Assembly (NCBI GenBank): GCA_021811805.1
Contig: JAKAQA010000006.1
Span: 1-33,528 of the forward strand
Direction of reading: 5' to 3'
Length of the DNA: 33,528 nucleotides
Origin: a bacterium
GTDB lineage: Bacteria > SZUA-79 > Acidulodesulfobacterales > Acidulodesulfobacteraceae
In this document: positions 13,742 through 17,607 of the stretch, piece by piece
Numbering within the stretch: position 1 is the first letter of the stretch
Layout: each line of letters opens with the position of its first letter
Made by a program: the position numbers and the translations under genes
Notes under the pieces: model-generated
Seen by the model: only the letters and a program-made list of their open reading frames with translations
The model's database searches: none
What the model was told of the DNA's origin: nothing

Positions 13742-15001
13742 TTGACTATGAACTATCCTTTTTCTGCTATATTCTATATTTTAATCTTATCATTATTTTT
13801 ATTCTTTTTGTATATCTTTTTATATAAAAATATACAAACATTATTTGTTAAAAATAAATTCAGGGAATACCGAGATAAAATAGAAAATTATTTATATATA
13901 TTAAACAATATAATGGACGGATTGGCAATTATAGACGCGGATAAAAATATTTTATTCGTCAACGGAGCTTTCAATAAAAATATCAGGTCGGCAAGAAATC
14001 AATTGAATATCGTTGAATTCGATGCTTTGACAAGAAATTTGGAGCTCAATTCTTTAATCGACAGTGCCGTTTCCGACATAAATTTTAAATATATCGAAAA
14101 AAAACTTTCCTATTACGACAGGGCGGAAGAAAAAATAATTAACTGCATTATATTAAAAATAGAATCTTCCGGCGAATACGCAGTTATCGTCAGAGACATA
14201 ACATACATTCAAAAAATTGAAAATGCGCGCACGGCGTTTATCCAAAATATATCCCATGAATTAAAAACTCCGATAACCGCGATAACGGGTTTTGCCGAAA
14301 CGTTAAAGAACGGGGCCATCGACAATCCCGGCGTCAGAATCAAGTTTATAGATATAATATATCATCATGCAAAACGCCTTAATTATTTAATCGACGATTT
14401 GATTACGCTGACTAATATAGAAACCGAAAAATCCCGCATAAAATACGAAAAAATTTATATTAAATCCGGCATAAAAGATTTATTGGTTCTATTCGAAAAA
14501 GAAATAAAAGAAAAAAAACTAACGGTAATCGATAATATATCCGATATTTCCTTCGTTTCCGACCCCGTAAAAATTAACCAAATTATAACAAACTTAATTC
14601 AGAACGCCGTTAAATATACCGATAACGGCGGAACGATTAAGCTCGAAGGATGTGTTGCGGACGCTAAAGCCGCCGCAGATTTTATTTCAAATATAGGAGA
14701 TGCGTCCGTTTTATGGGATAATCTTCAGTTCAAAGAAAATTCGGACGAATTCTTTTTCTTTTCGATAGAAGACGACGGCAAAGGCGTAAACTACGCTAAT
14801 CTTCTCAGGCTCGGCGAGAGATTTTTCAGGGTGGACAGTTCGCATGACGATATAAATAAAGGAACCGGATTGGGTCTTGCTATAGTAAAACACACGCTAA
14901 GGCTTCTTAGAGGCAGTGCGGTAATTAAAAGCAGTCTGGGGAACGGTTTTATATTTTCTTTTATAATACCGTGGGCAGAAAGCGATTTTAAACAAAATTA
15001 A
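13742..15001 (+). CDS. PhoR-like PAS sensor histidine kinase
   Basis: N-terminal TM, PAS-like segment, H-box FIQNISHELKTPITAITGFAETL, N-box IITNLIQNAVKYTDNGG, G-boxes DDGKGV and GTGLGLAIVKH. Listed start is TTG; ATG two codons later is equally possible. Confidence 0.88.
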   Translation: MTMNYPFSAIFYILILSLFLFFLYIFLYKNIQTLFVKNKFREYRDKIENYLYILNNIMDGLAIIDADKNILFVNGAFNKNIRSARNQLNIVEFDALTRNLELNSLIDSAVSDINFKYIEKKLSYYDRAEEKIINCIILKIESSGEYAVIVRDITYIQKIENARTAFIQNISHELKTPITAITGFAETLKNGAIDNPGVRIKFIDIIYHHAKRLNYLIDDLITLTNIETEKSRIKYEKIYIKSGIKDLLVLFEKEIKEKKLTVIDNISDISFVSDPVKINQIITNLIQNAVKYTDNGGTIKLEGCVADAKAAADFISNIGDASVLWDNLQFKENSDEFFFFSIEDDGKGVNYANLLRLGERFFRVDSSHDDINKGTGLGLAIVKHTLRLLRGSAVIKSSLGNGFIFSFIIPWAESDFKQN

Positions 15002-15872
15002 CTTTTGGAACGGAAGATATTAGCTTGTTTTTATATAACAATTCCGAGTAGAGATTGAATCCTCTAATTTCGTTTTTTCCGAGGTCGAAGCTTAAACATT
15101 CCGTCCAGTAGTCGATGAGTTCTTCGTAAGATATAAACTTATATTCGTCTGATTTCGATATAGATATAGCGGCTTCTCTAAACCTTGAAACAGCCGTTCT
15201 TTTTGATTCGATAAGAAACGCGTATAGGATTTCGAACTCATTCTTGTTTTTATCGTAAGCCTCTTTGTTTATTATAAAAAGGGCAAAAACAAAAGGATAT
15301 CCCGTATATCTGTACCATAAATCAGCCAAATCATAAGCAAAATAACCTTCGGGAATATGTTTTGCCAGCTTTAAAGCATTATTTCCTATATGCAGAAAAA
15401 TTCCTCCTTTTATTGCCTCGCCGCCTGCAACCGGTCCGAGTTTCAGTTCTAATTTATCATCCGGCTTTAAAGTAGTAAATTTTATTTTGTTTAAATCCAT
15501 TTTATATATCTCGGCGAGTAAAACTTTCAGAAGATTTATAGATGTAAGCGTTTCTGGAGTAACGCATATCGTTTCGTTTTCGTTAAAATCTTCAATAGGC
15601 TTCGGGGAAAAAAGATAAATGCTTTTTACTTTTTTTTTGGAACTTATGGAAAGGTCGGGAAATATGTAGGAACGTTTATAATTTAAAATATAATAAAAAG
15701 AGGATGAGGGGCTGATATCTATATTTCCGGCTTCCAGTTCCCCGTTTAAAAAAGCGGGGCTCCCGGAAACAAAATTCATAAAATTTATTTTATTATCGTT
15801 TTTAAGCGCTTTTTTTAAATAATAATATATCGGATATACGTTAAGATAATTTATTTCCCCGATACGGATCAT
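14988..15872 (-). CDS. mqnA: Chorismate dehydratase MqnA (futalosine menaquinone pathway)
   Basis: MIRIGEINYLNVYPIYYYL, GSPAFLNGELEAGNIDISPSSSFYYILNY, GKIGDEA-like LHIGNNALKLA, YDLADLWYRYTGYPFVFALFI: typical MqnA motifs. Confidence 0.85.
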   Translation of the reverse strand: MIRIGEINYLNVYPIYYYLKKALKNDNKINFMNFVSGSPAFLNGELEAGNIDISPSSSFYYILNYKRSYIFPDLSISSKKKVKSIYLFSPKPIEDFNENETICVTPETLTSINLLKVLLAEIYKMDLNKIKFTTLKPDDKLELKLGPVAGGEAIKGGIFLHIGNNALKLAKHIPEGYFAYDLADLWYRYTGYPFVFALFIINKEAYDKNKNEFEILYAFLIESKRTAVSRFREAAISISKSDEYKFISYEELIDYWTECLSFDLGKNEIRGFNLYSELLYKNKLISSVPKVNFV

Positions 15873-16528
15873 CTGCCGGCTCCGGTATTATCGTTCGGGC
15901 TTAACTCCGATATTGCGGCAAACAGGTAGTCCGGGTTGTATGTTTTTAATTCTTCAAAGGTATGGTTGCCTGAAGCCACGCTGCAAATATGGATACCGGC
16001 ATTTTTCGCGGCCTTTATGTCTATCGGAGAATCGCCTATTAATATCGTAGAAGTTTTAGGAACGGCTGTTTTCTCGACAATCTTATTTATCATTTCGGGA
16101 GAAGGCTTCCCTTCGAGTCCGTCGAATACTCCGTAAACATAATCGAAAAAACCGTCTATTTCCAAATGTTCCAGCAATTTTCTGGATATCGAACCTGTTT
16201 TATTCGTAGCTACGCTTAAAGATTTTTTTTCTTCTTTAAGGTATAAAAGAAGTTCTCTAACCCCTTTAATTAATGATGTTTTTTCAAAACATACTTCTTT
16301 ATATCTGTTTCTGAAAAGAGCTATTGCTTCCTCTTCATTCTCTTTCCCGAAAAGCCGGCCGAGAAGGCCTTCTAACGGGACGCCCACATAAGAATTAGAC
16401 TCCTCGAAAGTTATATTTCTGCTTTGAAATCTTGAGAATACGGCATCGAAAGCATCGTTAATGGCCTCGAAAGAATCTATCAGCGTTCCGTCTAAATCGA
16501 AAATTATGGAATCATATCGTTTTAAAAT
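15869..16528 (-). CDS. HAD-family phosphatase (phosphoglycolate phosphatase/PpaX-like), proposed AUU start
   Basis: ORF track begins at GTG 16387, but the same frame continues upstream through KILKRYDSIIFDLDGTLIDSFEAINDAFDAVFSRF, which carries HAD motif I (DLDGT). Later motifs SVATNKTGS and ILIGDSPIDIKAAKNAGI are in the ORF. There is no ATG/GTG/TTG upstream in frame; ATT at 16528 with AGAGG 9 nt upstream is the best candidate. Confidence 0.75.
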   Translation of the reverse strand: MLKRYDSIIFDLDGTLIDSFEAINDAFDAVFSRFQSRNITFEESNSYVGVPLEGLLGRLFGKENEEEAIALFRNRYKEVCFEKTSLIKGVRELLLYLKEEKKSLSVATNKTGSISRKLLEHLEIDGFFDYVYGVFDGLEGKPSPEMINKIVEKTAVPKTSTILIGDSPIDIKAAKNAGIHICSVASGNHTFEELKTYNPDYLFAAISELSPNDNTGAGR

Positions 16529-17607
16529 TTTAAAAAACCTCTCATAAATTCGGCGGTCTCTTCTGGAATAGCGGTATTTATCGACATGCCTGTTCCTATC
16601 TCGAAACCTGCCTTCATAGTTAATCTTGGGATAATCCTCAGACTCCAGTGATAATAATCCTCTTTTTCATCGGCTATCGGCGGATTGTTAAATACGAAAT
16701 TATAATCCGGGTCGTTCAATGCATCATGCATGCCCTTAAGGATTTTTTTTACTATGACTGCTAAATCTTTGGTTTTATCTACGGACATATTCGAAAAGCA
16801 CGGTTCGTGCGATAAAGGCATTATCCAAGTTTCGAACGGGCTCGCAGAAGCAAAAGGGTGAAAAACTATAAAATCGCCGGTTTGCAGTATGATTCTCCTT
16901 CCGTCCACGATTTCAGCCTGTATCATATCGCAGAATATGCATCTGCCGACCTCGTCGTAATAAAATCTTGCTTGGGATATATTGTTTCTTAAAGAAAGGG
17001 GGATTACAGGGGTGGCAATGATTTGCGAATGCGAATGAACTATAGATGTCCCTGCATTGGCGCCGCTGTTTTTAAATATTATGATATATTTAAACTTAGG
17101 GTTTACGCGTAAATTCAAGTATCTTTCCCTGTACATTAAAAAAAGCTCCTGTATCTGCTTGTCGGAAAAAAACGGCAGTTGTTCATTGTGTTTAGGAGTG
17201 TCTATTACGACTTCGTGCGCGCCTATTCCGGGTTTCGTTCTGAAAACTTCCGTAGCTCTCGGGAAAAAGTATCCCGAAAAATCCGGATTAACTGCCCTCA
17301 TCTCCTCATATACTCTGGCATTTTCTTCGAAATTAAGGGAGAGTGCGGCAAACTTATTAGGAATAACCCTGACCCACCATCCCTTAGAGTTAGGATTTGT
17401 ACCTAGGGTTCTATACGATGCCGTCTCTTGAGGCGAAAGATATTCGTTTCCGGAACAAAACGGACAGTCCTTGGAATATTCCTGAAGATTTGCCTCATTA
17501 TCTTTTTTAGGCGAGAAACCGCCGCCGAACTCGTGAGGCCTTCTTCTTCTCTCGGTAGCAATTATGACCCATTCCCTTGTTGTTGGGTCCTGTCTTAATT
17601 CGGACAT
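16522..17607 (-). CDS. galT: Galactose-1-phosphate uridylyltransferase
   Basis: SELRQDPTTREWVIIATERRRRPHEF, CPFCSGNE, KNSGANAGTSIVHSHSQIIATPVIP, HWSLRIIPRLTMKAGFEIGTGMSIN. Confidence 0.92.
   Translation of the reverse strand: MSELRQDPTTREWVIIATERRRRPHEFGGGFSPKKDNEANLQEYSKDCPFCSGNEYLSPQETASYRTLGTNPNSKGWWVRVIPNKFAALSLNFEENARVYEEMRAVNPDFSGYFFPRATEVFRTKPGIGAHEVVIDTPKHNEQLPFFSDKQIQELFLMYRERYLNLRVNPKFKYIIIFKNSGANAGTSIVHSHSQIIATPVIPLSLRNNISQARFYYDEVGRCIFCDMIQAEIVDGRRIILQTGDFIVFHPFASASPFETWIMPLSHEPCFSNMSVDKTKDLAVIVKKILKGMHDALNDPDYNFVFNNPPIADEKEDYYHWSLRIIPRLTMKAGFEIGTGMSINTAIPEETAEFMRGFLKF

Follow-up and report, generated by a model that had tools for sequence, protein, structure and literature searches.

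A HAD phosphatase gene proposed to start at an AUU codon within the end of galT throughout a genus of Candidatus Acidulodesulfobacterales

The galT–HAD–mqnA locus and the genomes compared

The window (the whole stretch of 33,528 nucleotides analysed here) carries on its minus strand galT, encoding galactose-1-phosphate uridylyltransferase (16522..17607, with its stop TAA at 16524-16522), a HAD phosphatase gene (15869..16528, 219 codons counted from an ATT codon, then TGA), and an mqnA-like gene of menaquinone biosynthesis (14988..15872, PF02621). The stop of the HAD gene and the ATG of the mqnA-like gene share the bases ATGA (15869-15872), so that each of the three genes galT, HAD and mqnA overlaps the next. 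The HAD protein belongs to HAD_2 (PF13419, E 1.5e-44) and possesses the DxDGT motif (approximately 16498-16484, minus strand). The NCBIfam models nearest to it are those of phosphoglycolate phosphatase/PpaX, yet it falls under their equivalog cut-offs.

The minus strand at the end of galT reads ATG AGA GGT TTT TTA AAA TTT TAA, and in the -1 frame with respect to galT the HAD gene reads AAA ATT TTA AAA CGA TAT GAT TCC ATA ATT TTC GAT TTA GAC GGA ACG. The ATT proposed as its start (16526..16528, minus strand) is separated by one nucleotide from the galT stop (AUU-U-UAA). Two other features of the same strand matter below: a Shine-Dalgarno-like element, GAGGT (16537..16541), within the galT codons for M-R-G, and a pair of overlapping slippery heptamers in the galT frame, U_UUU_UUA_AAA (16528..16537).

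The locus was compared within the order Candidatus Acidulodesulfobacterales, an order of acid mine drainage (PMC6776010) represented here by 30 genomes. Sixteen of these belong to the genus of the window (g1), and the gene is present in 14 of them. The relatives, which include SZUA-79 and Candidatus Acididesulfobacter diazotrophicus, are MAGs, as is every sequence compared, and the HAD copies of the five other genera of the order (g2-g6) served as the outgroup. On the galT tree the members of g1 cluster together, the closest lineage being G017 (g3). The two remaining g1 genomes, G008 and G015, have none of galT, HAD and mqnA, which indicates loss of the region or an assembly gap, and they are therefore uninformative on the HAD start.

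Where the HAD gene begins

The mechanical ORF caller picked GTG (16385..16387, minus strand), which lies 3' of the DxDGT motif. The sequence-only reading had objected that such a start discards the motif, and had placed the start instead at the non-canonical ATT overlapping galT. Both points are borne out: the GTG is codon 47 (counting the ATT as 0), none of the 14 g1 genomes possesses a canonical start, and the boundary of selection falls at the ATT. Its further statement, that no ATG, GTG or TTG precedes the ATT in frame, is also correct, for 46 codons upstream are free of stops and the sole candidate among them is a CTG 40 codons away. That CTG was rejected as a start, since some species lack it and it is cut off by stops in L008, L009, L010, L012 and L013. 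An out-of-frame ATG at 16514 (ATG ATT CCA TAA) was also discarded; it opens an ORF of just three codons and is lost in most relatives (GAT to AAT).

The comparison with homologues that the same reading called for gave a uniform answer. In none of the 13 other g1 genomes does a canonical start occur at the site or 5' of it (12 have ATT and one ATA), and in all 14 HAD frames of the genus there is no usable ATG, GTG or TTG ahead of DxDGT. The codon at the proposed start is thus ATT in 13 of the 14 and ATA in G006. Error in sequencing or assembly is excluded as the source of the missing start by the identical state of 14 separate assemblies. Two loci are especially restrictive, L008 and L012, where an in-frame TGA lies upstream of the site by eight and five codons, respectively. 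Initiation there is consequently confined to a few codons around the ATT or ATA, and among these the ATT/ATA at the site is the best-placed near-cognate.

L012, the locus of G006, differs from the others by one base in a way that removes two galT residues and alters the galT frame relative to HAD. The indel could be real or could be an assembly error. As it stands, the galT stop comes earlier and the site is thereby freed from galT; the ATA closely follows the shifted stop, and the codon is still not ATG.

It might be supposed that translation proceeds solely from a downstream GTG or TTG, these being the first canonical codons, or that the gene is a decaying pseudogene. The first canonical codon, however, is not conserved: it is codon 29, 47, 121 or 137 depending on the species (again counting the ATT as 0), and to begin there forfeits DxDGT. 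Furthermore, conservation of the gene is highest towards its N-terminal end, with a pN/pS of 0.024 over codons 10-29, and 14 genomes keep the frame uninterrupted. I consider the chance of either a downstream start or a pseudogene to be close to negligible.

The pattern of substitution also locates the beginning of the coding region. In the 12 codons preceding the ATT, pN exceeds pS when the DNA is read in the HAD frame (0.091 and 0.044), while the same DNA read in the galT frame gives a pN of 0 and a pS of 0.35. After the ATT, HAD codons 2-29 show a pN/pS of 0.054 with a pS of 0.46. Purifying selection changes over at the ATT: upstream the galT frame alone is constrained and downstream the HAD frame is. 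The letters of the ATT are themselves partly held by galT (xxA TTx, the third base of a Lys codon and then Phe), and for this reason the argument rests on the missing canonical start and the selection boundary taken together.

A start somewhat further in, at a conserved ATA or ATT just before FDLDGT, would give a protein beginning MIFDLDGT, and within g1 the ATA codon in the SIIFDLDGT stretch indeed never varies. No purine-rich Shine-Dalgarno sequence lies at a fitting spacing from it, however, and the resulting protein would have a truncated first strand of the HAD fold. Codons 2-9, which such a protein would omit, are somewhat constrained (pN/pS 0.21, from small counts), and their Leu and Ser are common to the relatives that start with ATG. 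The inner start is accordingly very improbable.

Initiation at the ATT itself has a plausible ribosome binding site. The sequence-only reading had named AGAGG, and that sequence does end 9 nt ahead of the ATT; the best match to a Shine-Dalgarno sequence is instead GAGGT (16541-16537), complementary to ACCTC in GGATCACCTCCTTT, the canonical 3' end of 16S rRNA that the order possesses. GAGG ends 9 nt ahead of the ATT in 13 g1 genomes, and in G006 GGGGG precedes the ATA. Folding of the RNA around the HAD start and downstream of it revealed no structure more stable than those of shuffled sequences (z 1.25, 0.60, -0.91, -0.86).

The reading in favor of the AUU, though supported, had overlooked a rival: -1 frameshifting on U_UUU_UUA_AAA near the end of galT, which would yield a GalT-HAD fusion protein. 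Two overlapping heptamers stand in the correct phase just before the galT stop, HAD lies in the -1 frame, an SD-like element is located upstream, and a usable heptamer occurs in 12 of the 14 g1 genomes (both heptamers in ten, the second alone in two). The two exceptions, however, are telling. L008 has A_UUU_CUA_AAA, which is neither heptamer and should not permit a slip, and in L012 HAD is in a different relative frame, galT ends GGG TTT TAA, and the HAD frame contains a TGA. The bases TTT TTA AA are moreover Phe-Leu-Lys codons, found as well in sister genera whose HAD gene has its own ATG, and the downstream region has no stimulatory structure distinguishable from shuffles. With the heptamer missing in one genome and out of phase in another, no downstream structure, and a coding reason for the sequence, frameshifting is improbable. 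The two readings predict different proteins: an N-terminus of the type M-LKQYNSIIFDLDGTLIDSFEAINDAFDAVFSK from the AUU, and a fusion containing a sequence of the type ...GFLKILK.

Origin of the start and its companions in the order

All HAD copies of the outgroup (g2-g6) have an in-frame ATG three codons upstream of the site, or four in one case. At the corresponding position G019 (L015) reads TTTTTAAA, GGAGTAAAAAACTATATGATTAAA and ATTTTA in succession, where g1 reads TTTTTTAAA and then ATTTTA, an exact in-frame loss of 24 nt between AAA repeats; measured against G017 (g3), the loss would be 15 nt. A short in-frame deletion in the ancestor of g1 took out the original ATG of HAD and, if that ancestor resembled G019 (24 nt), the old galT stop and Shine-Dalgarno sequence as well. 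It set an ATT from within the old coding sequence at a suitable spacing behind a pre-existing purine stretch, after which the gene stayed under strong purifying selection with its apparent non-canonical start retained ever since. All 14 g1 genomes that carry the gene keep it intact. A single T-to-G change would restore ATG at the site, but it would also turn the last galT residue from Phe to Cys.

In order to see how unusual such a gene is, I set 1.13 Mb of G014 (g1) against 1.20 Mb of G019 (g5), which gave 541 gene pairs, and sought conserved N-termini that extend upstream of any canonical start. The hits were prfB, selD and a thioredoxin-like ORF, some genes broken by frameshifts, noise from upstream sequence, rsfS of G019, and the HAD gene itself, which is one of two clear cases among the 541 pairs that have no start and no known recoding or frameshift to explain it. 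prfB (G014:C9, G019:C1), which has no N-terminal start in its main frame, I take to be the known, typical case of a +1 frameshift gene. selD (G014:C4, G019:C5) opens immediately behind a stop codon that stands ahead of GCKIGPEDL, a context that suggests the use of selenocysteine in this order; the hits to selD and the thioredoxin-like ORF are probably due to selenocysteine UGA.

infC lay outside the portion of G014 that was screened. It is without ATG, GTG or TTG at its conserved start in L053-L061, L063, L068-L075, L079 and L080, where GGAGA(G/A) is followed by ATA CAG/CAA AA in at least three genera; L063 and L074 also have in-frame ATGs at a greater distance upstream. The sequences point to a conserved AUA start of infC in these genera. 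rsfS (ribosome silencing factor) has no canonical start in several g1 genomes, g3 and g5 (L232-L235, L237, L238 and L240; in g5, L241, L242, L243 and L245), while it starts with ATG in the subclade of G014 and with GTG in g2. In several g1 genomes and g3 the context is AAGG.....ATC GAT/GAA AC, and the start there is most likely AUC. An in-frame TTG is also present a few codons later in L235. In g5 the site (AUA/AUU/ACA) is uncertain. AUN starts thus appear to be used repeatedly but rarely in this order.

Putting these considerations together, I favor the view, with a probability of roughly 85%, that the HAD gene is translated by initiation at AUU, possibly coupled to galT and with an output expected to be low and IF3-sensitive, its ATG having been lost by an ancestral deletion. 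Initiation at the AUU itself is strongly indicated by the missing canonical start and the change in selection: the initiator tRNA would decode AUU 16528 as fMet, with ribosomes positioned by GAGGT in the end of galT and/or arriving from galT termination. Coupling to that termination is plausible from the geometry, since termination-reinitiation requires an overlap or a very short distance (PMC10666635), and here 1 nt separates the HAD AUU and the galT stop. Other AUU starts, together with the AUA with which infC begins in these genomes, would lead one to expect sensitivity to IF3; an excess of IF3 in E. coli reduces both re-initiation without a Shine-Dalgarno sequence and initiation at non-canonical codons (PMC2268962). 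Output should be low, given that in poor medium AUU and AUA reporters in S. aureus are expressed at about 10% of the AUG level (PMC13009471), and that rsbW of L. monocytogenes mutated from ATG to ATT or ATA is still detectably translated, ATT more weakly than ATA (PMC13068326).

Both IF3 and RsfS counteract the association of ribosomal subunits. One may speculate, though I think it rather unlikely, that the level of IF3 sets the outputs of infC (AUA), rsfS (AUC) and HAD (AUU) together. If so, the control of subunit joining by IF3 and RsfS would be linked to a metabolic phosphatase.

Comparison with known non-canonical starts

Few AUU starts are known to have become fixed naturally outside infC. 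In this instance the event that would have created one, the in-frame deletion of an ATG, can be read from the alignment, and the sister genera with ATG together with 13 ATT and one ATA offer a ready comparison. The HAD/galT pair is a test case for why a weak start persists in an overlapping, possibly coupled pair of genes. It carries a practical lesson as well: gene calling restricted to ATG, GTG and TTG cuts a conserved enzyme short of its catalytic motif, and does so throughout the genus. Beyond what the sequence-only reading had proposed, the comparison adds the origin by deletion, the fixation throughout the genus, and the companion starts of infC and, probably, rsfS.

The most familiar precedents are the conserved AUN starts of infC: AUU in E. 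coli, AUA in S. aureus, ATT in Listeria and ATC in Streptomyces (PMC5472188, PMC13009471, PMC13068326). Like them, HAD has a conserved non-canonical AUN start on an otherwise ordinary gene. It differs in that infC encodes IF3 and is autoregulated, whereas HAD is a phosphatase gene of metabolic type whose AUU overlaps the end of the upstream gene and arose through deletion of an ATG. L. monocytogenes provides a parallel in geometry, where infC and the overlapping rsbW function from AUU/AUA starts (PMC13068326). The ATT/ATA start of rsbW lies within the 3' end of the upstream gene (17-bp overlap), as does that of HAD, but the rsbW starts are laboratory-selected point mutations and the HAD state is fixed genus-wide.

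Other genes outside infC resemble HAD in their start codon. According to later papers that cite Binns and Masters (2002), E. coli pcnB has an AUU start that limits its translation, in a different gene and context. In S. aureus, cvfC1 (AUU) and ccpN (AUA), besides infC, have functional AUU/AUA starts, that of cvfC1 being conserved among staphylococci (PMC13009471), and it is this conservation that HAD shares. The limit on expression was measured for pcnB, and the S. aureus starts combine a very strong, extended Shine-Dalgarno sequence with ribosome profiling; the HAD start, in contrast, has only a 5-nt match. Finally, sigR of S. coelicolor starts at GTC, is repressed by IF3 and is misannotated by ORF callers (PMC5472188). 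Its non-canonical start is kept through its genus and misleads ORF callers, as in HAD, but the codon is GTC/GTT, the gene encodes a regulator, the ribosome binding site is strong and the start has been proven experimentally, where that of HAD is deduced from comparison of genomes. The HAD start is well supported as a new member of a small known class, rather than as a new kind of system.
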